Positions 3,294 to 20,037 of a stretch of DNA of 20,037 nt are shown here, piece after piece; within the stretch, counting starts at the first letter, position 1; each line of letters opens with the position of its first letter. The DNA comes from a virus. The notes beneath the pieces are model-generated. The model was not told the origin of the DNA, did not search any database, and worked only from the letters and a program-made list of their open reading frames with translations. Where the stretch lies: the IMG/VR virus record IMGVR_UViG_3300044797_000048, positions 1-20,037 of that record, one strand, 5' to 3'. The translations under genes and the position numbers were made by a program.

Positions 3294-4403
3294 TCAGGCG
3301 GCGAGGAGCGGCGGCGCTTTGGCCGCGGCGGTGTTCGCTTTCAAGTTTCCGTTGATCTCGGCGAGGAGTTGATTCGTCTTCCGGGCTTCGGTCACGACCG
3401 GATCGACGATGATCGTCGAATACGCCCGCCCGCCGCCGCCTTCCTGCCGCTGCGCGCCCGCATAGTCGTGAAGGGAGACTTTGTACCCGGTGACGCGCCG
3501 CTCGGATGCCTGGGCGCGCTCATCCCGGCCATCCTCGCGGGCTTGGCGGGCTTTCTCCTCCTCGGCCTTGCGGTCCGCCTCCTCTTCGGTCCGGGCGGTC
3601 CGGGCGGCGGCTTCCTGGGCGTCCTTGGCCCGCTTCTTTTTGATCTCGTCGTCGATGTCGGCATTTTCGACGAGGGATCGGAAGGCCGCTTGGGAAAGAT
3701 TTTCCTCCGGCTTCCGATCGGAGAAGCCCTTCACTTGCCCGGAATTGAGCTTGATCTCCTCATTTTTCGCCGCGAGCGCGCCGGCCGATTCAAGGATCGT
3801 TTGCCGGAGCGATTCCTCCTTCTGCCGGTCGGCCGCGAAATTGGTCGCGCCCGAGCCCAAGCCGAAGAGCTTCTCCGCGCCGATCGCGACGGTCGCAAAA
3901 AATCCCGGGTTTTGAAGCTGGGCGTTTTTGGCTTGGTCCTCCTTCTCCTCTTTTCCCAGCGCCTTGCCCTCGCGGCGCTCCGCGGTCTGCTTGATGCCTT
4001 GGATCTCTTCGAGGAGATCGCCGGCGCTTTCAAGCTGGCGGTCGAGTTCTTCGCCCATCGACTTAAGCGCTTCCTCGCCTTTGTCGAAGGCGGACACGAG
4101 CGCCGCGCCGACGCCGGCAATCACGGCTCCGGCGAAGCCGATATTGAAGACCTCCGAGAGATGGGTCACGGCCCCGGCGAGCGCTTGCGTCGAATCCTTC
4201 GCGTTCGCGAAACTGCTCACGGTGTCGATCAGGTTCGTGCGGACGCGGCGCTCGGAATCGACGAGGAGGGCATTTGCCTGGGCTTGGCGATTCTTCGAGG
4301 CGACGAGCCGGTCCGAGGCTCCCTCGAATTGAGAGAAGCCGGACGTGTCCGCCCGGGAGGTCAATTGGACTTGGACTTCTTGTTTGGTCGTCTCGCTGGC
4401 CAT
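3294..4403 (-). CDS. Tail tape measure protein, unusually short
   Basis: This encodes 369 aa from an ATG at 4403 that shares one base with the upstream stop (TAATG). The N-terminus (QVQLTSRADTSGFSQFEGAS) resembles the opening of many tape measure proteins. A hydrophobic segment lies at residues about 88-106 (GFAGAVIAGVGAALVSAF). Charged, Ala/Glu/Lys-rich coiled-coil stretches follow at about 108-155 and 245-310. This pattern, and the place two genes after the G/T chaperone, fit a tape measure that sets tail length. At roughly 0.15 nm per residue it would give a tail near 55 nm, well below the 853-aa lambda gpH. A minor coiled-coil tail protein is the alternative, but no larger candidate exists in the window. 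Confidence 0.75.
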   Translation of the reverse strand: MASETTKQEVQVQLTSRADTSGFSQFEGASDRLVASKNRQAQANALLVDSERRVRTNLIDTVSSFANAKDSTQALAGAVTHLSEVFNIGFAGAVIAGVGAALVSAFDKGEEALKSMGEELDRQLESAGDLLEEIQGIKQTAERREGKALGKEEKEDQAKNAQLQNPGFFATVAIGAEKLFGLGSGATNFAADRQKEESLRQTILESAGALAAKNEEIKLNSGQVKGFSDRKPEENLSQAAFRSLVENADIDDEIKKKRAKDAQEAAARTARTEEEADRKAEEEKARQAREDGRDERAQASERRVTGYKVSLHDYAGAQRQEGGGGRAYSTIIVDPVVTEARKTNQLLAEINGNLKANTAAAKAPPLLAA

Positions 4404-5561: not shown

Positions 5562-5708
5562 TTAAAAAACCGGCCAGCGAAGCCAAGTGAGGGCGATCCA
5601 GCGGATCCAAACGAGCGGCCCGTGGTTGATCCGGACCGCCGGCATCAAGCCGACGCCGGCCGCATGGACGACCCGGATCTCGACCTCTATTTTCGGGACC
5701 GAGGCCAT
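5562..5708 (-). CDS. Small 48-aa protein with hydrophobic aromatic C-terminus
   Basis: This is a short gene whose ATG at 5708 shares one base with the upstream stop (TGATG) and whose TAA stands one base before the next ATG (TAACATG). The product begins MASVPKIEVEIRVVHAAG and ends in a Trp-rich stretch (LVWIRWIALTWLRWPVF, residues about 32-48). That tail could be a short membrane-associating or amphipathic helix, though it carries two Arg. It sits between the Tad1-like gene and the tail chaperone, outside the core tail set. The tight junctions on both sides argue that it is translated. The function is unknown. Confidence 0.6.
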   Translation of the reverse strand: MASVPKIEVEIRVVHAAGVGLMPAVRINHGPLVWIRWIALTWLRWPVF

Positions 5709-6085
5709 CAGGCGACCGGCTTCCCTTCGACGCCGCGCGAGATCCGGTCCCGCGTGCGTTTCTGAAGCCATGCGAGCCCTTCCTCGAAGTGTTCGAGGGC
5801 TTTGCCACCCTCCCGGGATGGGAACGGCGCGACGCCGGTCACATTGAGCCCTTGGACGCCGCGTAGCCGGTCGATGATGATCGCGGCGAGCGCCTCGTTC
5901 GTGATCCCGTTCGGCCGGGCGATGTCGGCGACCTGCCCGCGGTGAAACTTGAGCCGGAGCGTGTCGTCCTTCGTGACGATCGTATATTCGGCATTCGAGC
6001 CGCCCTCGCCGACCGGATCGGTCGCGGTGATGGAGATATTCCCGTTGATCGTGCCCTCGATGCGATGATCGGTGATTGCGCGCAT
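5708..6085 (-). CDS. Tad1-like protein (Acb2/Tad1 hairpin domain), probable anti-defence signal sponge
   Basis: This encodes 125 aa from an ATG at 6085 with the only convincing Shine-Dalgarno sequence in the window. The C-terminal half, residues about 58-121, has the pattern I associate with phage Tad1-like proteins. It begins PNGITNEALAAIIIDRLRG, then a variable loop, then ALEHFEEGLAWLQKRTRDR ending in SRGVEG. The N-terminal half is beta-rich (GNISITATDPVGEGGSNAEY), also as in that family. Tad1 proteins bind and sequester TIR-derived gcADPR signals of Thoeris, and some also bind CBASS cyclic nucleotides. The loop at residues 80-94 appears longer or different from the usual FQ-G-F form, so ligand choice may differ. 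It lies among tail genes but need not be structural. The family assignment is from memory of the motif pattern, not a search. Confidence 0.7.
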   Translation of the reverse strand: MRAITDHRIEGTINGNISITATDPVGEGGSNAEYTIVTKDDTLRLKFHRGQVADIARPNGITNEALAAIIIDRLRGVQGLNVTGVAPFPSREGGKALEHFEEGLAWLQKRTRDRISRGVEGKPVA

Positions 6086-6086
6086 T

Positions 6087-6512
6087 TTATCCTTCCATTA
6101 GCCGGCGGAGATTGGCTTCCGAGACGTTCGCGCCGACGACGGCGACCCGGTTTCCTTGCTGAATGATCCGAAAAGGGAAGCGTTCCGCGTCCTTCGCCGC
6201 GCGGGCAAGGACTTTGCGGTTCTCCGCGTGCGCCTTCAGGTGCGCGACTTGATGATCGAGCGAAAGCTCCTTCGTGAAATCGGCCCAAGGGCAGGTGAGG
6301 AGCCGGAGCCAATCGAGCGTCGTCTTTTTGATTCCGCCGACGATCACTTCGCCATGCTCGAACCAAAAAATCACTTCCTTGCCGCCCTTCTCGCTGATGA
6401 CGGAGGTAATCGGCAATTGCTCGCGCCGCTGGCATCCGATTTCGATCAGGGAGGCGGCGGCGGCGATGTCCTTGGTATAGACGTGCTGCCGCTTGAAATC
6501 TTGCTCGTTCAT
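6087..6512 (-). CDS. 141-aa phage protein, DUF5659-like N-terminus, unknown function
   Basis: This encodes 141 aa from an ATG at 6512. Residues about 10-55 (HVYTKDIAAAASLIEIGCQR, then a short loop, then EVIFWFEHGE) resemble small phage proteins in which a T-D-[hydrophobic]-A-A-L helix is followed by a beta strand with alternating Phe. I think of DUF5659, at moderate confidence. The C-terminal part is helical and charged (HLKAHAENRKVLARAAKDAE) and ends NLRRLMEG. It is separated from the tail tube gene by 43 bases holding a hairpin. It is followed directly by the Tad1-like gene, so it may belong to an accessory pocket rather than to the tail. Its function is unknown. Confidence 0.7.
   Translation of the reverse strand: MNEQDFKRQHVYTKDIAAAASLIEIGCQRREQLPITSVISEKGGKEVIFWFEHGEVIVGGIKKTTLDWLRLLTCPWADFTKELSLDHQVAHLKAHAENRKVLARAAKDAERFPFRIIQQGNRVAVVGANVSEANLRRLMEG
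6090..6096 (-). promoter_or_regulatory. Strong Shine-Dalgarno before the Tad1-like gene
   Basis: The minus strand reads GGAAGGATAAAATG. The purine block GGAAGGA at 6096-6090 stands four bases before the ATG at 6085 and overlaps the end of the upstream gene. No other start in the window has a comparable ribosome binding site, which suggests this gene is translated more independently of its neighbours. Confidence 0.7.
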
Positions 6513-6555: not shown

Positions 6556-6960
6556 TTACGGAGTCGTGATCGAGGGGTATTGGACGAAGGAGCCCGAGAA
6601 CTTGATGAAATCCTCGTTCGTCAACCGAAGGGTGAATTCCTCGTTATACACATGCCCGCCGGAGAGCCCGGAGCCGGCTTCGTTGAACACGTTCGCCAGG
6701 GTCACGACGCCGCCCGGGTAAGCGGAGGCGGCGAGCCCGGAGAGCCCGGAGGCGTAGCCGTTCGAGAAGATCGCCGCGCCGCTCATCGTGTAAACCGCCT
6801 TCGGGGCGTAATAGCCGACCGCGATGATGTCGCCGACGTTCCCGAGGACCTCCTTGCGCTGCCGCTGGGAGGCGCGCTCGACTGAAGCGATGACGACGCC
6901 CGTCTCTGCGTTCGGGACGCCGAAGAGGAGCCCGGTTTGTCCGATTGTGATCGCGGCCAT
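6556..6960 (-). CDS. Tail tube protein candidate
   Basis: This encodes 134 aa from an ATG at 6960, 16 bases after the upstream glycosyltransferase-like stop. It is a low-charge, Gly/Ala/Thr-rich beta protein beginning MAAITIGQTGLLFGVPNAET. It has an inner segment GDIIAVGYYAPKAVYTMSGA and a C-terminal strand region (NEEFTLRLTNEDFIKFSGSF). The size and beta pattern fit a small tail tube subunit. The place upstream of the G/T chaperone also fits, although three accessory genes intervene. Another tail or neck protein cannot be excluded without a structure prediction. Confidence 0.6.
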   Translation of the reverse strand: MAAITIGQTGLLFGVPNAETGVVIASVERASQRQRKEVLGNVGDIIAVGYYAPKAVYTMSGAAIFSNGYASGLSGLAASAYPGGVVTLANVFNEAGSGLSGGHVYNEEFTLRLTNEDFIKFSGSFVQYPSITTP

Positions 6961-6976
6961 GCCTTACCCGGCCATG

Positions 6977-7915
6977 TCAATCGGCCGGATGGGGCGTAAG
7001 CTCTTTCAAGGAGCCGTCGATTTGCGGCTCAAGGATCGCGGTCGCGTTCGGGAGGGTTTTCACCGCCTGGGCGGCTTCTCCCAGGTCCAAGAGCGGCCCG
7101 GGAAGACTCAAGGCGGACGGCCGGGACGCCGGCTTGAACTTCGGCCGCTTCGGATTCGGATTGGGCTCCGCCGGCCCGGGCTTCGCCCGATCGGTCACGA
7201 GGACGAGGATCTTCGCGAGCCGGCCGCGGCCGGGGACCGCCGCTTGAGCGAGCCCGGCGATGATCCCCTTCACGGTCACGACGGCCTTTGCCGCGGCGAT
7301 CACGCCGGCAAGCTCGGGAAGCGAAGAGAAGGGCGCGGCGATCCGGCCCGGCCCGAAGTTGCGGCCGAAGGTCGCCCAAAGCTGCGGCACGCCCGGGAAT
7401 GCCTTTTCCGCCCAAGCCGCGAGGGCATTGGCGTTGATTTCGATCGGGTTGCTCTCTTGCGAGATCGGGGCGATCAGCACACAGCCGGCCGTCGCGATCG
7501 CCGCCGGCTTCGGGAGCGGGATCTCGATCGAAGGCCAAGGATTCATTTGGATCTCGCCGGCAAGCTCCGGGTTTTTCTCCGAAATGACGGAAACGACCCA
7601 AGCCCAAAAGGAGCCGCCGAAGGCAACTTGCCGCGCCTCGAATGGTCCCTCGGAATCGATGTCGATCACGCGGTCATAAAGCGGCCCGGCCTTGCGGTGA
7701 AGATTCTGATTTTCGTTCAGCCGCTCGACGACCTCGAAGGGATGATGAGGGTTTTTCCATTTCACGCCCGGCGCGAGGTCGAGCACATGCTTGTGCTCGT
7801 CGAGGCATTCGATGAAGACCTCCTCGTCCGGCCGGATCTTCTTGATCGCCTGGGCGATCGCGAGCGCCCGAAAGACGTGATACGTCCGGACATGCCGGCG
7901 GATGACGGTCTTCAT
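6977..7915 (-). CDS. GT-B-like glycosyltransferase (GT9/heptosyltransferase type), second copy
   Basis: This encodes 312 aa from the ATG at 7915, which overlaps the previous stop as ATGA. The N-terminus (IRRHVRTYHVFRALAIAQAI, then EEVFIECLDEHKHVLD) aligns by eye with the 276-aa protein encoded at 8975-9805. Shared positions include HVR, R-L/A-AQ, EVF-E, and a W followed by Pro. A second Rossmann-like half has GCVLIAPISQESNP and SLPELAGVIAAAKAVVTVKG. The latter resembles the region in GT9 heptosyltransferases where an acceptor site helix follows a sugar-nucleotide pocket. The C-terminal 80 residues are Pro/Lys-rich (KPGPAEPNPNPKRPKFKP) and likely disordered. The donor and acceptor are unknown. 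A catalytically degenerate relative is possible. Confidence 0.65.
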   Translation of the reverse strand: MKTVIRRHVRTYHVFRALAIAQAIKKIRPDEEVFIECLDEHKHVLDLAPGVKWKNPHHPFEVVERLNENQNLHRKAGPLYDRVIDIDSEGPFEARQVAFGGSFWAWVVSVISEKNPELAGEIQMNPWPSIEIPLPKPAAIATAGCVLIAPISQESNPIEINANALAAWAEKAFPGVPQLWATFGRNFGPGRIAAPFSSLPELAGVIAAAKAVVTVKGIIAGLAQAAVPGRGRLAKILVLVTDRAKPGPAEPNPNPKRPKFKPASRPSALSLPGPLLDLGEAAQAVKTLPNATAILEPQIDGSLKELTPHPAD

Positions 7916-8172
7916 CGCTGGTCGCCGCCGATCCCGGCCGCGATGAGCTTGCGTTGCCGCCGCATCCGCTGGCATTGCGGGGACATTCCCCAATCACGGG
8001 GCGAATGGGAGCTTCGGCGGGCGAGCGGATGCACGTTGAGGAGCGGAGCGTTCGACGAAGCGACTTCCGAGCCCGCGGAGAGCCTCGGCATGAGCGCGCC
8101 CATCGTCGCGGCCAGGATGCCGAGCCGGGAGATCCGGCCCTCGATTTTCTGACGGTGTTTTTCGGAGTCCAT
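7912..8172 (-). CDS. 86-aa protein, unknown
   Basis: This encodes 86 aa from the ATG at 8172 (MDSEKHRQKIEGRISRLG). It stops in an ATGA overlap with the following glycosyltransferase-like gene, which supports translation. The first half is probably helical with a hydrophobic patch (LGILAATMGALMPRLSAG). The second half is basic, with one Cys and many Arg (QCQRMRRQRKLIAAG). A longer frame to 8235 would overlap the upstream gene, and the start at 8172 is 16 bases after that gene's stop. No family is recognised. It could be a neck protein or an accessory partner of the glycosyltransferase. Confidence 0.6.
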   Translation of the reverse strand: MDSEKHRQKIEGRISRLGILAATMGALMPRLSAGSEVASSNAPLLNVHPLARRSSHSPRDWGMSPQCQRMRRQRKLIAAGIGGDQR

Positions 8173-8188
8173 GATGCCGGATTGAGCG

Positions 8189-8659
8189 TCAACGGGTGGG
8201 CGTCGCATGGACCTCGAATTCCCAGTGGTAAGCATAAAGCCGCATTTCCTGGGAGACTTCGACCTCGCCCTCGGGCCGGGCGATCACGCCGTAAACGGTG
8301 AGCGGGATCGCGCTCGCGGCGGTGAGCCGGAGCGCAAGATCCTGCATCGGGCCGCGGTTGGTGAGGTCGTTCCGATAGAAGGTTTGCCGGACGCTCCGGA
8401 TCAAGGAGGAGGTCGTCTCCGGATCGAGCGTGTCCGCCTTGACCTGCAATTCGAGATCGACCCGCTGCTTGAAGACGCCGGAGCCCGGCGCGAGTTCTTC
8501 GACCTGATCCCGGCAGCGGATCAGAAGCCCGGGATGCTTGATTTCATCCGTGCTTCCGCTCGTGAAGATGGCGAGATCCGGCAGCAGGCCGCGGATCATC
8601 AGGGCAAACGCGGCTTCCGTGAGGAGCCGCGGATCGAAGGTGTTCAAGGGCGCGCTCAT
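8189..8659 (-). CDS. Tail terminator / tail-completion candidate
   Basis: This encodes 156 aa from an ATG at 8659 in an ATGA overlap with the previous gene (MSAPLNTFDPRLLTEAAF). The alpha/beta pattern PGLLIRCRDQVEELAPGSGV, then a strand VDLELQVKAD, then a helix with IRSVRQTFYRNDL, resembles tail terminator and neck proteins of siphoviruses. It ends in a strand-rich segment (LYAYHWEFEVHATPTR). The position after the head-tail joining candidate and before the tail tube matches lambda gpZ/gpU. The role is inferred from fold pattern and order. Confidence 0.6.
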   Translation of the reverse strand: MSAPLNTFDPRLLTEAAFALMIRGLLPDLAIFTSGSTDEIKHPGLLIRCRDQVEELAPGSGVFKQRVDLELQVKADTLDPETTSSLIRSVRQTFYRNDLTNRGPMQDLALRLTAASAIPLTVYGVIARPEGEVEVSQEMRLYAYHWEFEVHATPTR

Positions 8660-8985
8660 TTGCCGTCGATCAAGGCGAAGGAATAAGTCGCTCCGTCCGG
8701 AGAGACATGCCACGTCAAGACCTCCCAATCCGGATCGCCGTCGAGGACCACAGGCATTCCCTCCTTCAGCTTCACGCCGACCAAATTCGCCGCGAGCGCC
8801 ATCAATCCTTGCGCCCGGTGAATCTCCCGGCCGGCAATTTCGAGCTTGTCGGACTCGGCAAGCTCCGTGAGGCACACTTGAAACGACGCGCCGCCGATCT
8901 CAAAGGTCGAAGTGAATTGCCGCGCGAAGACGTTCCCGATCAGGCGGGCATAAGAGGCGCGGGCGGTTGGGTTGTTATCGGGCAT
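8656..8985 (-). CDS. Head-tail joining protein candidate
   Basis: This encodes 109 aa from the ATG at 8985 (MPDNNPTARASYARLIGNVF), overlapping the end of the upstream gene by 11 bases. The frame continues to 9060, but that extension is Arg/Ser-rich and lies inside the neighbour, so I rejected it. The C-terminal half has KLKEGMPVVLDGDPDWEVLTW followed by a final strand. This beta-barrel-like pattern is similar to small head-tail connector proteins such as lambda gpFII (117 aa). It is ATGA-coupled to the tail terminator candidate, as expected for neck genes. Confidence 0.6.
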   Translation of the reverse strand: MPDNNPTARASYARLIGNVFARQFTSTFEIGGASFQVCLTELAESDKLEIAGREIHRAQGLMALAANLVGVKLKEGMPVVLDGDPDWEVLTWHVSPDGATYSFALIDGK

Positions 8986-9805
8986 TCTGCGGGACGATCG
9001 ACGGGCAAATCGACGCGAAGGAGACTTCCCATCGCGCTTGCCCTTTGGCGATGATGTCATCTTGGGAGCGCTCGCGCGGATCGAGCGGACTCACATGATG
9101 CCACTTCTCGCGGATGCGCTCCGAGCCGACGAAGGCGGAGCAAATCGCGGAAACCGTCCCGTTGATGGTCGCGACGCCGGCCGCGCCCTTGCAGAGCGCC
9201 GGTAGATCCGGCAAATGCGAGACGGTCAGCGGCCGGAGCGCCGGATTCGGGGCGAAGCCGCCCGGCCCGATCAGATACATCGGTTGCGGGAGTTCGCCGG
9301 CAATTTCAAGCCCGCGAGCCCAGGCGAAAATCATCTCGAAGCCGATCGGCACGAGATCACAGAAACCGCGTTGCTGGGCGTAGGAGAAGCCGGTCATGCA
9401 GAGGAGAGAATACTTCGCCGGCAGGTGATACTTTGCCCGGGTCGCCTCGACCTCGGGGATCTTCGAGAAACGGATCTCGCGCGGCGCGCCCTTGAAATCC
9501 TTCGGGGACATCCCGACGATGAAATCCCAAAACTTCGGAGCCGGATGATCGGTCCGATATTTGCTGGTAAAGCGCGGGTTGATCGTGAGCGGGAAGACGA
9601 CCTCGAAGGGCGCGCCGTCGTCCTGGGGCCGGCCCTTGCGCCGCGGGTCCTGCCAGCGGCAATAATCGACGCAATCGAAGATCGATTCATAAGCCGGGAG
9701 CGTCTCAAAAAAGACCTCGTGCTTCTGCTTCGCCAAATGCTGCGCGAGCGGGAGAAGCCGGATGATCTCGGAGAGCCGGACGTGATATTGAATACAAATT
9801 CTCAT
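8975..9805 (-). CDS. GT-B-like glycosyltransferase (GT9/heptosyltransferase type), first copy
   Basis: This encodes 276 aa from the ATG at 9805, ATGA-coupled to a 47-aa microgene. The N-terminus MRICIQYHVRLSEIIRLLPL, then HEVFFETLPAYESIFD, looks like the first Rossmann strand-helix unit of GT9 ADP-heptose transferases. A second domain contains YLIGPGGFAPNP and HLPDLPALCKGAAGVATING. This resembles the donor-binding region of that family, in which a Gly-rich loop precedes a helix and a conserved T-x-x-G site. It is shorter than usual (about 320-350 aa for GT9). The 312-aa protein at 6977-7915 is a divergent paralogue. A likely role is attachment of a sugar to a virion component or to a host surface glycan. 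The substrate is unknown. Confidence 0.65.
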   Translation of the reverse strand: MRICIQYHVRLSEIIRLLPLAQHLAKQKHEVFFETLPAYESIFDCVDYCRWQDPRRKGRPQDDGAPFEVVFPLTINPRFTSKYRTDHPAPKFWDFIVGMSPKDFKGAPREIRFSKIPEVEATRAKYHLPAKYSLLCMTGFSYAQQRGFCDLVPIGFEMIFAWARGLEIAGELPQPMYLIGPGGFAPNPALRPLTVSHLPDLPALCKGAAGVATINGTVSAICSAFVGSERIREKWHHVSPLDPRERSQDDIIAKGQARWEVSFASICPSIVPQNAR

Positions 9806-9945
9806 TTGGTTTGGCGACTCTCACATTTACGCGGCACCGGATGTTGGGCGACTATTTCAATTTTGGGCTTCGGTCCTTTCGGCGTTTGCCAAGGCCACGG
9901 TTCTGCGCACGGGCGTCCGTTTTTATAGACAATTTTTGCATTCAT
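9802..9945 (-). CDS. 47-aa microgene between two glycosyltransferase genes
   Basis: This is a small frame from ATG at 9945 to TGA at 9802-9804. Its start overlaps the upstream stop (GAATGA) and its stop overlaps the next start (AAATGAG), so it is locked by ATGA junctions on both sides. The product begins MNAKIVYKNGRPCAEPWPW and ends VPRKCESRQTK. It is basic and rich in Pro and Lys, with two Cys and a WPW motif. It exactly fills what would otherwise be a gap between the two glycosyltransferase genes. No family is recognised. A partner or chaperone of the glycosyltransferases is a guess from position. Confidence 0.65.
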   Translation of the reverse strand: MNAKIVYKNGRPCAEPWPWQTPKGPKPKIEIVAQHPVPRKCESRQTK

Positions 9946-11849
9946 TCGATTTTATAGCGTGGATTCCTGCGGTTGAACAGGGCTTTGCCTTGCTCGTATC
10001 GGTCGGCGGCATTCTGCGCCGCGTAAGTCGCATCGAGCGGCTTGCCGGCAAAAAGCGGGTGATCGTGGACAAAGGTGAGATCCCGCCCGTCGATCACGAC
10101 GCCGTTCTCATAAGCGCGGACCGTGAATTCGTTGTCCGAATAGACGCCCAAATAATCCGGATGGAAGAGATAAGGATCGCCGGTCCGCTCGTGCTTCTGG
10201 CGGAGGTAGTATTGCCGCGTCAGGATCGCCATGCAAAGGAGCTTGTCCGTTCGATGCCCGTCCGAGATCGCGAGGACCGCCGGCCGGTTATGCTCGATCG
10301 CCACTTGCATCCGCCAAATAATGAGATTGTCCCAGTGATGCGGCACGATCCAATCATCGGACATTTGCACGAGGACTTTGCCGCGGGAGAGCGCCGCCGC
10401 CGCATTCCACGCCCGCACGCAACCGCCGCCGGGCTCGACCGTGACGACGTTGCATCCGTCCAACTCTTCGACGCTCTCCTTGTCGTCCGCATCGATCGCG
10501 AAAATGTGCTCGATCATCCCCGGCTTCAGCGCCGCCCGGAGCCATTGATCCCGGGTCGCGAGCGCCTTCTCGGGCCGGCCGCGGGTCGCGTGCAAGAGCG
10601 AGATCATCGGCGCGCCGCCGTGCTCCTCGTCCTCGATCTTGAGCGCCGCCTCGGGAGCCTTCAGCTTCCGGCAGATAAAGGCGTTCGTGAGATTCGCCTG
10701 CCATCCGTACCAAGCATCCTCGATCCAATTCGGCCGCTCGTTCACGGGCGGCATGTTGATGCACTTCGCGAGTTGAATCCAAGTGAGCGCCCGGGTCCAA
10801 TCCTTCCGGGCATTGTACGAGAGCGACATGATGCAATAACACTCGCGCCGGTACGGGGCGAGCCGGAGCCCGTTCAAGCACATGTTTTCGCATTGGCCGA
10901 AGTCGCCGACATCGAGGTACAGCTTCGCGAGGTTATAATAAACCGCGTACTTTTCGGCGGGGGTGAGGTTTTCCGCCTTTGCCGCCATGACTCCCCACTT
11001 GATCGCCTCGTTCGGCTTGGCGAGAAGGAGAGAGTCGCGATGGAGATAAAAGTAAATCATCGCCGAGGGCTCGATCGCATTTTCCAAGATCCGGAGATTC
11101 CGCGAGAGGCTCTTAATCGCCTTGTTCGAGCGCTGCTTGTCGGGAAGGGGAAGGTGAAAGACTTCGAGATCCGGCCGCGCCCGGCCGATGAATTTCCCGG
11201 GCGGCGGCAGCGAGAGCGCCTCGTGCACGGGTTGGACCCAAGGACAATTCAGGGAGCGCCGGATCACGCGCTCACGCATGAGCGGCGGTTTCCCGGCGAT
11301 CCGGTAATGCATGAAGAGCACGTCGAAGAGCCCGAGATCGACCTCCGCTCGGAGCTTGGCGATCGTGTCCGAGTCAATGATGTCGTCGCAATCGGCCCAC
11401 ATGATGAACTTGCCGCGGGCGAGATCCCAGGCGGCTTGCCGCGCCTTCGCGAAGTTGTCCACATGCGGCCAATGGGCGAGGTTCGCCTCATTGTGATATT
11501 CGGCGATCCGGAGCGGCTTGCGGACCTGCTCCCGGGCGATCGCGATCGTCTCATCCGGCACGAGGGAGCCGATTGCCCGGACAAGGACGATCTCGTCCAC
11601 CAAGGGCTCAAAAGCCGCCAGGAAGCGGCCGATGTGATGCTCCTCGTTCCCGACGATGCAAGCCAAGGTGAACCAGGGAGCCGGCCCGTCGCCGATACCC
11701 AGGTCGGCCCGGATCTCGGGGAGCGCCTGGGAAGGGTCCCTTTGGGGCGGAATCGGCTCGTCCCGGCCAGGATCGGCCGCGGGCGGGACATCGGCAGGGC
11801 TCGGCGGCTTGATTAGGTCCAAAAGATCCGGGGCGGTGCTTGAATCCAT
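9942..11849 (-). CDS. Two-domain GT-A glycosyltransferase with central helical (TPR-like) region
   Basis: This encodes 635 aa from an ATG at 11849. Residues 1-57 are Pro/Asp-rich and probably disordered. A family-2-like glycosyltransferase domain starts at about 58 (FTLACIVGNEEHHIGRFLAA) and has GKFIMWADCDDII at about 146-158. The ADCDD supplies the DxD-type metal and nucleotide-sugar site. Residues about 250-405 are helical and TPR-like (YAVYYNLAKLYLDVGDFGQC). A second GT-A domain begins at about 414 (MISLLHATRGRPEKALATRD), has GGGCVRAWNAAAALSRGK and MSDDW at about 497-500, and ends with VHDHP at about 594-598. Two catalytic domains around a repeat region suggest transfer of two sugars or building of a short glycan on a protein target. 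It sits directly in the late structural operon. Sugar and acceptor are unknown. Confidence 0.8.
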   Translation of the reverse strand: MDSSTAPDLLDLIKPPSPADVPPAADPGRDEPIPPQRDPSQALPEIRADLGIGDGPAPWFTLACIVGNEEHHIGRFLAAFEPLVDEIVLVRAIGSLVPDETIAIAREQVRKPLRIAEYHNEANLAHWPHVDNFAKARQAAWDLARGKFIMWADCDDIIDSDTIAKLRAEVDLGLFDVLFMHYRIAGKPPLMRERVIRRSLNCPWVQPVHEALSLPPPGKFIGRARPDLEVFHLPLPDKQRSNKAIKSLSRNLRILENAIEPSAMIYFYLHRDSLLLAKPNEAIKWGVMAAKAENLTPAEKYAVYYNLAKLYLDVGDFGQCENMCLNGLRLAPYRRECYCIMSLSYNARKDWTRALTWIQLAKCINMPPVNERPNWIEDAWYGWQANLTNAFICRKLKAPEAALKIEDEEHGGAPMISLLHATRGRPEKALATRDQWLRAALKPGMIEHIFAIDADDKESVEELDGCNVVTVEPGGGCVRAWNAAAALSRGKVLVQMSDDWIVPHHWDNLIIWRMQVAIEHNRPAVLAISDGHRTDKLLCMAILTRQYYLRQKHERTGDPYLFHPDYLGVYSDNEFTVRAYENGVVIDGRDLTFVHDHPLFAGKPLDATYAAQNAADRYEQGKALFNRRNPRYKIE

Positions 11850-12738: not shown

Positions 12739-13719
12739 TCAGGTGATCTTCGAGCCCGAGCTTGCGCTCGTGATGATGAGTTGCCCGGCGCGGGCGTCGA
12801 TGACCTTCTCGACGACCGATTGGCGGACCCGGAGCACGTCGGAGCGCTTGTCCTCATCGCGATAGGCTTCCACGGCCTTGAAGCCGCCGTCTTCGGCCCA
12901 TTCGATCGTTCGCATCGCGCCGCCGGCCAGGAAGTCGCCGCCGGAGATCTTGCCGACCCAAATGTAAGCATTCGTCCAAATGGGTTGCCCGAGGTACAAT
13001 TGACCTTCGCCGCCGATGTCCTGATAAGCGCCGCCGATCAGCAAGCGCTCGATCCCTTGGTCGAAAAAGACCTGGGCGGCTTGCTCGGGCGTGAGCACGG
13101 TCGGGAGCACGGTCGGGAAATTGCCGCGGACGTAGTTTTGAAAGAGCGGCGCGCGCCGGATGTAATTCCACAGCGGGTAGCTAAGGACGATCGTGTTCGC
13201 GATCGTGCCGATCCCGCGTTGATATTCGCACGCCGTTTGCACGTCGTTCACGAAGTCCACGGCGGCGAGGTTCGCTTGCGAATAAGCGGTCGTCGCGGAG
13301 AACGAGGTGAAGGAGGTCGTGCTCATCAGCAAGTTTTCGACGCGGACCTCGTAAGCGAGCATGAGCTTCGCGTCGAGGATCCGGGCGGTCGAGACTTCGA
13401 GGTCGAGATAACGGTCCGCGTATTGCTTGAGGGAGTCGTCCACGGTGGACTTGTACCCGTAATCGTTCGTCTCGAATTGATCGGACGACCAGGACGAAGT
13501 AACCTCTTGATAAGAGGTCCCGGGCGCGCGACGGTTCTCGTCGATGCGCTGCGCGCCGCGTTGCTCAAGCGAGCGGAAAAGGTACTGGCCCGCCTTGCCG
13601 CCGCCGTTATAAATCGGCGCGACTTTCTCGGCGATGCAGAATTTCAGGGCATCAAGCCCTTGTTCGAGCGCGGTGCGGACATCCGCGCGAAGAATTGTGC
13701 CGCCGACCGGATAAGGCAT
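12739..13719 (-). CDS. Major capsid protein (lambda gpE-like, HK97 fold)
   Basis: This encodes 326 aa from an ATG at 13719, close in length to lambda gpE (341 aa). It matches the gpE-type pattern. There is an N-terminal helix-rich part, a long middle with QANLAAVDFVNDVQTACEYQ, and a segment PLWNYIRRAPLFQNYVRGNF. The C-terminal region has GQPIWTNAYIWVGKISGG, TIEWAEDGGFKAVEAYRDED and a final SVVEKVIDARAGQLIITSAS. The last pattern, W followed by a yre-sDv-rv stretch and a terminal strand, is typical of this capsid family. It follows the decoration protein and is followed by a strong terminator, as expected for the most abundant virion protein. There is no clear Shine-Dalgarno sequence; the leader is pyrimidine-rich (CTCCTCCCATG). 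Confidence 0.88.
   Translation of the reverse strand: MPYPVGGTILRADVRTALEQGLDALKFCIAEKVAPIYNGGGKAGQYLFRSLEQRGAQRIDENRRAPGTSYQEVTSSWSSDQFETNDYGYKSTVDDSLKQYADRYLDLEVSTARILDAKLMLAYEVRVENLLMSTTSFTSFSATTAYSQANLAAVDFVNDVQTACEYQRGIGTIANTIVLSYPLWNYIRRAPLFQNYVRGNFPTVLPTVLTPEQAAQVFFDQGIERLLIGGAYQDIGGEGQLYLGQPIWTNAYIWVGKISGGDFLAGGAMRTIEWAEDGGFKAVEAYRDEDKRSDVLRVRQSVVEKVIDARAGQLIITSASSGSKIT
13093..13116. repeat. 12-bp perfect tandem repeat inside the capsid gene
   Basis: The unit gagcacggtcgg occurs twice back to back within the capsid coding sequence. It keeps frame and encodes PTVLPTVL on the minus strand. It is probably a small in-frame duplication in a loop. Confidence 0.7.
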
Positions 13720-17065: not shown

Positions 17066-18793
17066 TTATTTCGCCGAGCGCGCATGTTCGCCGTCTTCGA
17101 TCCGGCTGAAAAGCTCGTCCGCGGTCATTTCGAGCGCACGGACCTTCCGCGAGAGCGAAGAAATCCCGGCCGAATCGCTGCCGCCGGCTCCGCCGCCGCC
17201 GGCTTGCCCGCGTTGCCCTCCGGTCGTGCTCGGAGTGGGCCGCGGCTCGATCAGTTCGATCGGGATGCTCTTTTGCTTCGCCTGTTGAATCTTGAACGCC
17301 GCGTCATCGGCCATCCGTTCGACCTCCTCGCGCGGATTGCCGCCTTGCTCACGGACGATCCGGTCGAAGCTTTTCAAGCCCGCCTCGTATTCGGTGACGT
17401 TCGCCCGGCTCTCGCGGCCGACATCGACAGTCGGATGCGCCGGGACGCAAACATTGACTTTCGGGAGGCGCGAAAGATTTCTGAAGCGAAGCCGGCCGGT
17501 GACGATGCCGTTCGCGATGCAGCGCTTGAAATACGGCTGATAAAGTCCTTCGTCCATGAAGGCTTGCCATTGCTCGAAGGTCCGCTTCGCCTGGGCGGAT
17601 TCGAGCCGGGCCGGCACGCCGCCGAGCGTGGACGTGTCGAAGGAGAAGCCGAAGGGCATGCAAAGGGCGGTACAGACCTGCCGATAAAGGAGGGCGACAA
17701 AGCCGTTGAACGACGAGGACGGCCGATCGGTCTTCGCCGCCTCGATCGACTCGCCGATCCCAAGATAGCCGATTTGCCCGGGACGAAAATCCTCGTAAAC
17801 CCGTTCGGTCGTGAACGCGCCGGCCGGGCCGATCGTCGGGAGCACGCCGGGGACCTCGGCGGCGAAGATGCGCTCCGGATTCGCCGCCGACGCATCGCCC
17901 GGCGCGGTTTTGACAAAGCCCGCCCAAGAGTTTGCCCATTTGACGCCGAGCTTCTCGTTCGCGAGGATCTCCTTGATGTCGCGGGCGGTCGTGACGGCGG
18001 AGGCGATCGCCGAGATGCCGCGATATTGGTCCGTCCGCTGCCGGTTTGCCAAAAACTGAAATTGATTCGCGGGCACGCGGGTATATTCGCTTTGGTAATA
18101 CCCGAAATTATTCCGGGGGTAGATGCGATAACCGAGGACCTTTCCGGTCGCGGAATCATACTCGACGCCCGAGACGAGCCCGGGCTCGATCCAATAATGA
18201 TAGCCGCCGATCACATCGGATTCGCAAGATTGAAGCTGAATCCATGAAACCGGCCGGCCCATGATCGCTGAACCTTCCGGATCGGCGACATCGTGGAAAA
18301 TGCTCCCGAAGTCGCCGTCGCGGATCACGGACTTGAAAATCAGGCGCGCAAGCTCCGTGAATTTCGATTTGCCCGTGAGATCGCAATTTTGCATGCACTC
18401 GTAAAGGTAATCTTCGAGCATCGCGTCGTCGCCGGGATCGCCCGTGATCGCCTCGATCCGGATCTTCGGCCCGACGACGTAATGCGACATCCGGTCGAAG
18501 AGCCCGTGAATGAAGGGATCGTTCATCTCCAAATCGCGCGCCTCCCAAACGATTTGCAGGCGGTCGGAGGAATTTAGCGGAGTGTTCGACGTGATCGTTC
18601 CGGCGCGGGTCGCGTTCATCCGCGCCCGGGTGATCCGCGCGCCCTCATACCCGAAGGCGTGCCGCCGCTCGCGGGCGATCGCGTTCCGCAGCGCCGCTTG
18701 GGGCGCGACGATGCTCAAAGCCCGGTCGGCGATCCGCTCCGCGAAATTCGGCTGATAAGGCTTATACCCTTGCTCTCGAATATCGGTCTGCAT
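17066..18793 (-). CDS. Portal protein (lambda gpB family)
   Basis: I place the start at the ATG at 18793 (MQTDIREQGYKPYQPNFAER), giving 575 aa; a longer start at 18829 would overlap the upstream gene by 23 bases. It carries typical lambda-type portal features. These are an N-terminal RARMNATRAGTITSNTPLNS, then DPFIHGLFDRMSHYVVGP, the wing and stem region with YHYWIEPGLVSGVEYD and YRGISAIASAVTTARDIKEI, and VALLYRQVCTALCMPFGF. The C-terminus has a helical segment (SLSRKVRALEMTADELFSRI) after a Gly-rich linker. Lambda gpB is 533 aa, so the length fits. The portal is the dodecameric ring at the capsid vertex through which DNA is packaged. Confidence 0.9.
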   Translation of the reverse strand: MQTDIREQGYKPYQPNFAERIADRALSIVAPQAALRNAIARERRHAFGYEGARITRARMNATRAGTITSNTPLNSSDRLQIVWEARDLEMNDPFIHGLFDRMSHYVVGPKIRIEAITGDPGDDAMLEDYLYECMQNCDLTGKSKFTELARLIFKSVIRDGDFGSIFHDVADPEGSAIMGRPVSWIQLQSCESDVIGGYHYWIEPGLVSGVEYDSATGKVLGYRIYPRNNFGYYQSEYTRVPANQFQFLANRQRTDQYRGISAIASAVTTARDIKEILANEKLGVKWANSWAGFVKTAPGDASAANPERIFAAEVPGVLPTIGPAGAFTTERVYEDFRPGQIGYLGIGESIEAAKTDRPSSSFNGFVALLYRQVCTALCMPFGFSFDTSTLGGVPARLESAQAKRTFEQWQAFMDEGLYQPYFKRCIANGIVTGRLRFRNLSRLPKVNVCVPAHPTVDVGRESRANVTEYEAGLKSFDRIVREQGGNPREEVERMADDAAFKIQQAKQKSIPIELIEPRPTPSTTGGQRGQAGGGGAGGSDSAGISSLSRKVRALEMTADELFSRIEDGEHARSAK

Positions 18794-18806
18794 TTTGACG
18801 CCCGGG

Positions 18807-19064
18807 TCAGGTAGTGAAGCCGCCGCCATAGGCCAGGGTCCGCCGCACGCGGTTGCTCCCTTGCGTGTCCTGGGCGGCTTGGATCTCCGCCCGGAATTGG
18901 GTCAGTTCCGACATATTGGCGAGGGTCATCGAGCGACCCGTGATCGAGTGTCCTTGCCCGGTCTGAAGCACATCGAGGATGCATTGATCCGTCGCCGCGG
19001 CATATTGCACCAGCGTCGCCGCCGGCAGCTTCGCGAGATAATTCGTGATTTGTCCAAGAGCCAT
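18807..19064 (-). CDS. gpW-like head-tail joining protein
   Basis: This encodes 85 aa. I chose the ATG at 19064 (MALGQITNYLAKLPAATLVQ), which is 16 bases after the terminase stop; an upstream start at 19148 would run inside the terminase gene. The C-terminal pattern HSITGRSMTLANMSELTQFR followed by a helix resembles small gpW-type proteins, which carry a G-R-S-x-T-x-A-x-L helix hairpin. The place between terminase and portal is the classical gpW position. It would plug the portal after packaging and help join the tail. Confidence 0.78.
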   Translation of the reverse strand: MALGQITNYLAKLPAATLVQYAAATDQCILDVLQTGQGHSITGRSMTLANMSELTQFRAEIQAAQDTQGSNRVRRTLAYGGGFTT

Positions 19065-19080: not shown

Positions 19081-20037
19081 TCAAGAGGGCGCGGGGGGCT
19101 CCTCGGGCGGCGGCGCGGCGCGCCGGAGCGGTCCCTTGATGAGTCCAAAGACGACTTGCATTGCCTCGCAATCCCAAAGGTGATTGGGGCGCTTGCCGAC
19201 GCGGACCCATCGCCGGATCTCCCGGGTCCCGCGCGTCTCGACGACCTGCTTCCGCTCGCTTGTCATTTGGTTCAAGTAGAATTGCGGCACGTCCGAGCCG
19301 ATCCCGAAGTAAACCGCCTTCCCGCCGTAAAGCCGGGCGAGGATGTCCTTGCAAGGCGTGTTCGCCCACATGATCTCAACCGCCCGCCGCCGGAGCGCGT
19401 CGCCTTGCTTGTCCGTGCCGATCGCCGTATCCACGACGCGCGGCTCGGAAAAATAGCGGCGGATCGGGCTCTTCAGTCCCTTCGAGTGGACAAAGGAATC
19501 CTCATCCCGGCCGCGGAGCGCGAGCCATCCCCATTGGGCGCAGCGTTCGAGGACCTCGCTCGGATTATACGTCACATCGCAAAGGACCATTCGATCAGTG
19601 ACTTGGTTTTTCTGCTGAAGCTCGCGGAGTTGATCCCAGGTATGGGCATAGCCGCATTGCCGGAGCCGCGATCGGCCGTCGTCGGCCCAATCGCGGACGA
19701 CAAACCAGAAGTAAGGAGCCAATTCTTGCACGTCGATCGTCATCGCGACGCATGATCCTTCCTTCCACGGCTCGCCGGTCATCGAATAATCGCCGGTCGA
19801 ATTCGTATTCACGTCGAAGATCACGTCGTCCGACCAAGGCTCATTCAGTCCCTTGAGGATGAATTGCTTCATCTCCTCGTCGTCGCCGAGGTCGAGCGAT
19901 TGCTGCGCGTTCAGAAATTGTTTTACGAGGTCCGCCCAGGGATAAACGGCGACGCCCGAGACGGCCCAAGCCCGCGTCTTCATCGAGGCGCTCGGATTGA
20001 AGGCGCGGTAACGCATCTTCTGCCGGAGCTTGACCCG
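19081..20037 (-). CDS. Terminase large subunit, C-terminal nuclease part (GpA family), N-terminus outside the window
   Basis: 318 codons are visible. The frame stays open to the right edge, so the ATPase part lies beyond the window. The visible part matches the nuclease half of GpA-type terminases. It has VAMTIDVQELAPYFWFVVRD with a likely metal-binding Asp, MVLCDVTYNPSEVLERCAQW with a second Asp, and the late motif RPNHLWDCEAM typical of this family. The C-terminus is Pro/Glu-rich (RRAAPPPEEPPAPS), which in terminases can contact the portal. It cuts concatemeric DNA and powers packaging into the prohead. The assignment is firm. Confidence 0.9.
   Translation of the reverse strand, partial: RVKLRQKMRYRAFNPSASMKTRAWAVSGVAVYPWADLVKQFLNAQQSLDLGDDEEMKQFILKGLNEPWSDDVIFDVNTNSTGDYSMTGEPWKEGSCVAMTIDVQELAPYFWFVVRDWADDGRSRLRQCGYAHTWDQLRELQQKNQVTDRMVLCDVTYNPSEVLERCAQWGWLALRGRDEDSFVHSKGLKSPIRRYFSEPRVVDTAIGTDKQGDALRRRAVEIMWANTPCKDILARLYGGKAVYFGIGSDVPQFYLNQMTSERKQVVETRGTREIRRWVRVGKRPNHLWDCEAMQVVFGLIKGPLRRAAPPPEEPPAPS

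Follow-up and report, generated by a model that had tools for sequence, protein, structure and literature searches.

What does a phage sponge protein of the Tad1 family bind once the otherwise invariant residue of its pocket has been replaced? This question is raised by a gene in a stretch of 20,037 bases, referred to here as the window, that makes up a complete IMG/VR virus record and may be a fragment. The only close relative found is a second record, IMGVR_UViG_3300050116_000063 (the sister), in which the gene order is as in the window. The features discussed are collected in Table 1.

Table 1. Features of the window; residue counts refer to the set of 119 relatives described in the text.
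Feature	Position	Strand	Details
Terminase large subunit, endonuclease-domain match	19081..20016	minus	Pfam PF20454, E 4.5e-13; near window end
Portal protein, lambda family	17066..18829	minus	Pfam PF05136, E 3.4e-41
Major head protein	12739..13719	minus	PHROG 1005, E 4e-22
Preceding gene	6087..6512	minus	141 aa; stop TAA 6089-6087
Shine-Dalgarno-like AAGGA	6090..6094	minus	4 bases before the tad1-like ATG; within the final codons of the preceding gene
tad1-like gene	5708..6085	minus	125 aa; ATG 6085-6083, stop 5710-5708
Codon 32	5990..5992	minus	GCC, Ala; His in 110/119 relatives
Codon 48	5942..5944	minus	CAC, His; Gln in 118/119 relatives
Codon 77	5855..5857	minus	GTC, Val; Phe in 111/119 relatives
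Inter-helix stretch (helix 1 to helix 2) with about six additional residues	5831..5851	minus	residues 79-85
Codon 93	5807..5809	minus	GGT, Gly; Asn in 119/119 relatives

The gene and its translation signals

Every gene considered in the window is read from the minus strand. An earlier, sequence-only reading of this DNA had placed an open reading frame at 5708-6085. The frame exists on the minus strand, which that reading left unstated, and the motifs that it had picked out (NGITNEALAAIIIDRL, LQKRTRDR and RGVEG) are all found in the translation. A plus-strand reading of the same stretch contains an in-frame stop and was rejected. The GC content at the three codon positions (0.65/0.48/0.83) is similar to that of the neighbouring genes, and the frame therefore looks like a translated gene. 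One base separates its start codon from the stop codon of the preceding gene, whose product matches no Pfam or PHROG family, and the arrangement is consistent with translational coupling of the two. In the sister this junction is two bases long, and AAGGA precedes tad1 there too. The same motif had been singled out as the only good ribosome binding site of the window; in a check of 24 starts, no other match at a usable distance was as long, but the motif also serves as coding sequence of the preceding gene.

Pyrimidine runs of the CTCC type lie directly before the starts at 13719, 14192, 17042 and 4403 (minus strand), at the position expected of a Shine-Dalgarno sequence; the motif is absent in that form from the sister counterparts checked. 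At the other end of the tad1-like gene, a possible open reading frame of 48 aa (5562-5709, minus strand), contained within one of 69 aa (5562-5771), overlaps the stop codon through TGATG. In the corresponding region of the sister, only about 45 bases lie between tad1 and the next gene.

Membership of the Tad1 family

PHROG 2428, to which no function is assigned, matches the window protein at an E value of 1.8e-19. Because the Tad1 of Bacillus phage SBSphiJ7 falls in the same family (E 8e-47), PHROG 2428 can be equated with the Tad1 family. A single-protein search of PDB sequences retrieved CbTad1, the Tad1 of a Clostridium botulinum prophage (PDB 7uav, 7uaw, 8smd, 8kbe, 8kbf), at an E value of about 7e-9, and CmTad1 (PDB 8kbb apo, 8kbc with cAAA, 8kbd with cAAG) at 1.5e-6. 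With a seven-sequence profile, the PDB matches were CmTad1 (2e-39), CbTad1 (about 6e-28) and phiKZ gp184 (1.2e-18), and there was no other at E values up to 0.1. At E values up to 1e-3, 33 of 50,697 phage records match the window protein, among them the SBSphiJ7 gene annotated as Tad1 (E 3e-7, tblastn); the best matches, in the Agrobacterium phages OLIVR5 and OLIVR6, are 37% identical over nearly the whole length. A search of plasmids with the window protein gave four weak matches. In a tree of 120 sequences, the protein sits on a long branch without support. The domain also occurs in longer proteins: in gp131 of Burkholderia phage FLC9 (L006:718-1734) it forms the C-terminal part, and the N-terminal part presumably resembles a cyclophilin-type prolyl isomerase.

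A search with the profile of the Acb2/Tad1 hairpin family, proposed as a check by the sequence-only reading, formally fails: Pfam PF24729 does not match the window protein even at an E value of 1, and NCBIfam gives no match either. On full-length relatives, the Pfam model scores 34.2 bits for SBSphiJ7 and 25.7 bits for the sister against a cut-off of 27, and does not detect OLIVR5. The model is insensitive for the branch to which the window protein belongs.

The hairpin itself is present in the predicted fold, together with a beta sheet. An AlphaFold2 monomer model built from 61 sequences (pLDDT 92.9, pTM 0.83) has an N-terminal beta sheet followed by two long C-terminal helices, the order of elements that the available text of PMC12043709 gives for Tad1. 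All ten Foldseek matches in the PDB at E values up to 1e-3 are CbTad1 (TM 0.72-0.83). By VIA-align, CbTad1 has a Z score of 13.2, with 116 residues at 2.6 A, CmTad1 has 11.0-11.7, and the next, unrelated entry has 6.2. The best BFVD match of the model is an Acb2/Tad1 hairpin protein. Acb2, a phage sponge that Pfam groups with Tad1, has a helical hairpin like that of the window protein, but consists of helices only according to PMC12043709, whereas the window model also has its N-terminal sheet. No Acb2 chain is among the Foldseek and VIA-align matches listed, which is not proof of a difference. Sequence and predicted fold together support the membership of the window protein in the Tad1 family, and the Tad1-like identity suggested earlier is borne out.

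Residues of the pocket and its loops

Conservation was assessed over 119 relatives, consisting of 63 distinct proteins (from 80 of 176 loci), 46 more (from 80 of 203 loci), the sister, seven proteins of named phages, CbTad1 and CmTad1. Since the set was gathered with patterns that covered residues 59-68, the conservation figures for that region are biased; positions 32, 48, 77, 93, 110 and 114 are outside it. The window protein retains R73, R110 and R114, three arginines found in all 119 relatives, the RGVEG tail (G118, V119, E120, G121), and F47, G50, N59 and G60. In comparison with CbTad1, the whole fold is alike (TM about 0.8) and the conserved arginines of helix 2 are common to both, but the two are about 30% identical, and the window protein has Val, Gly and His in place of Phe, Asn and Gln, as well as the extra inter-helix residues. 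A longer form of the insert occurs at the same place in the sister, and also in two other relatives (L010 and L011). The difference that had been noted in the loop at residues 80-94 is real, and larger than was described.

SBSphiJ7 Tad1, CbTad1 and CmTad1 all keep the equivalents of N93 and Q48, and CmTad1, unlike the window protein, also has the Phe and His; the SBSphiJ7 protein likewise has the standard pocket residues. One relative (L120) has His at residue 48, as does the window protein. The change from Asn to Gly at residue 93 requires at least two base changes, and a single sequencing error is therefore no explanation. Residues 77 and 93 align to F82 and N92 of CbTad1, which we take to be gcADPR contacts and which are reportedly named as such in the first Tad1 paper; this numbering agrees with the PDB alignment provided that the construct in the PDB carries one additional residue at its N-terminus. 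At these two positions the window protein carries V77 and G93 instead of Phe and Asn.

According to the available text of PMC12043709, the Tad1 pocket is built from two protomers, one of which contributes four loops and its C-terminal tail and the other its helices; the trinucleotide sites are located at the trimer interfaces. The residues lost from the window protein lie within or next to the loops from which the family builds its nucleotide pocket. With N93, Q48 and F77 gone, the suggestion that the loop difference may alter the ligand gains strength, and such a change in the pocket would make a plain gcADPR sponge less certain.

The number of changes is in itself not unusual. Out of 30 positions that are at least 85% conserved, the window protein departs from the consensus at 10, CbTad1 at 9, a Serratia phage protein at 10 and the sister at 7. 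The idea that the protein is unusually degenerate overall was rejected, since CbTad1 departs from the consensus about as often. The departures affect 8 of 16 loop positions and 2 of 14 positions in helices and strands, a difference that is not significant (Fisher p 0.058). The identity of the lost residues, rather than their number, is what is remarkable. Because Phe, Gln and Asn are present at residues 77, 48 and 93 of the sister protein, the loss of the pocket rests on one sequence. In phiKZ gp184, Gln and Asn are kept, while Tyr replaces Phe and Lys replaces His; a sponge reported to be functional can thus do without His 32 and the precise Phe.

One could regard the protein as an ordinary Tad1 that still sequesters gcADPR and CBASS nucleotides, with neighbouring or extra loop residues compensating for those lost. 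In favour of this are its CbTad1-like predicted fold, its arginines and RGVEG tail, and a total divergence similar to that of the working CbTad1. Such a protein would, however, have to do without an Asn that every relative has and a Gln that all but one have, both of which persist even in gp184, and this reading seems unlikely.

A late structural operon and the sister phage

The genes for terminase, portal and major head protein lie upstream of the tad1-like gene in the same late gene array. The earlier placement of the gene in a tail module stands as far as a late structural operon is concerned, but a tail assignment would be a deduction from position only. As none of the ten proteins between 1967 and 8875 matches a PHROG, the term late structural operon is used here. 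A predicted model of the product of 6556-6960, based on two sequences, reached a pLDDT of 36.5 and gave no identification of a tail gene.

In the sister, tad1 (L090:8873-9277) occupies the same slot, and its product is 43% identical to the window protein. The corresponding identities are 75% for the head protein, 70% for the portal, 50% for the preceding gene and 30% for the following gene, and the genes flanking tad1 are 30-66% identical to those of the window. A further record (L091) covers the terminase and portal end only. Single-sequence scans of viral and genome contigs gave no relative, and two-sequence scans, which included the Tad1 and head protein of the sister, found the sister only in viral contigs and nothing in genome contigs. 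Among the 50,697 phage records, the head protein has one distant match and the portal matches 124 records, all under 60% identity, so there is no close named relative in that set. The proteins encoded at 6087-6512, 6556-6960, 8189-8875 and 3294-4403 have no match there.

Two other parts of the array deserve mention. A gene for a two-part glycosyltransferase of 635 aa (9942-11849, minus strand; PHROG 13126, E 3.2e-18, and PHROG 14945, E 7.4e-10), which is 60% identical in the sister, comes after the head genes and before the later ones. The products of 6977-7993 and 8975-9805 (minus strand) belong to no Pfam or PHROG family; each matches the sister counterpart of the other, and for this reason they are probably paralogues within the late operon.

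Relatives of Tad1 in other phages adjoin portals, terminases, helicases and replication genes. Ten large neighbours of such relatives, picked by hand, comprise two portal-type head-tail adaptors, three terminases, two helicases, one protein that matches a family of unknown function and two without a match. In SBSphiJ7, tad1 is not in a late structural array, but adjoins a gene that corresponds to one annotated as RecA-like in phage 035JT004. The proposal that a Tad1 beside structural genes is unusual in itself was rejected, as other relatives adjoin portal-type adaptors and terminases; the proximity of Tad1 to structural genes is already known. None of 168 other Tad1-match loci has a structural gene in common with the window, and one of them (L039) has a glycosyltransferase match. 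The lack of common structural genes and the variety of the neighbours indicate that the gene moves between unrelated phages.

A precedent for a Tad1 in the phage particle is gp184, which is attributed to phiKZ from its name and from PMC10449902. Its Tad1 domain corresponds to residues 101-226 of chain I in PDB entry 8y6v, and is preceded by about 100 extra N-terminal residues, possibly a part that serves in particle loading, whereas the window protein consists of the domain only. According to the accessible part of PMC10449902, gp184 is found with the inner-body proteins of the virion and was validated as injected. A review states, in the portion available, that the injected phiKZ Tad1 blocks CBASS and Thoeris (PMC13282480).

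This precedent raises another alternative, namely that this phage lineage has put the Tad1 fold to a new use in the virion or in its assembly, where the protein would bind ligand little or not at all. The late-operon place is fixed in the two phages, some relatives carry annotations as structural proteins, and consensus residues drift in both phages: H32, Q48, F77 and N93 in the window, and, in the sister, H32 as well as L66 (to Tyr), E120 (to Asp) and G121 (to Arg). Position alone says little, however, given the many kinds of genes near which Tad1 is encoded across the family, and phiKZ Tad1, although carried in the virion, is reported to keep its sponge activity in the same part of PMC13282480. 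Reuse as a structural protein is accordingly doubtful. That the gene is decaying, its pocket lost and its product no longer useful, is more improbable still: an otherwise invariant residue is gone and the lineage has two known members only, but the frame is intact with the codon-position GC of its neighbours, AAGGA and the tight spacing are common to window and sister, and the core residues R73, R110, R114, F47, G50, N59 and G60 are kept.

Proposed function

The explanation favoured here, with chances that appear about even, is that the gene is expressed late, together with the structural genes, and encodes a diverged sponge of the Tad1 family whose pocket has been re-tuned. It is supported by homology, the predicted Tad1 fold, the late-operon slot kept in the sister, and the loss of near-invariant residues. 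The protein would assemble as a Tad1 hexamer of three dimers and would sequester a nucleotide alarm signal without cutting it. Its six inter-protomer pockets would no longer hold gcADPR in the standard manner. They may take a different small nucleotide, or the protein may rely on the two trimer-interface sites, which in the Tad1 proteins studied hold CBASS cyclic trinucleotides. Late expression may blunt signals that arise late in infection, or may load the protein into particles for the next infection.

Several points speak against an altered pocket. The departures are hardly more numerous than in a working CbTad1, the apparent excess in loops is not significant, and a single sequence is concerned; gp184, reported to be functional, already departs at two of the sites. 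For carriage in the particle, phiKZ is a precedent by analogy. It is tempting to speculate that there is a phage lineage with a late, possibly particle-borne Tad1, the pocket of which has been rebuilt, through the replaced Asn, Gln, Phe and His and the longer inter-helix loop, for a signal that standard Tad1 misses, but the full combination is unlikely.

Implications

New here is a variant of the known and widespread Tad1 family in which the invariant Asn and its neighbours are missing. Tad1 sponges reveal the second messengers that bacteria use against phages, and a natural variant that keeps the fold and has lost an invariant pocket residue is a test of which residues determine the choice of ligand. 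The fixed place of the gene among late genes also prompts one to ask whether phages other than the phiKZ-like jumbo phages carry sponges in their particles. The window variant might lead to a messenger so far undescribed and, if the rebuilt-pocket lineage were true, it would be a hint of a host defence based on a different messenger.
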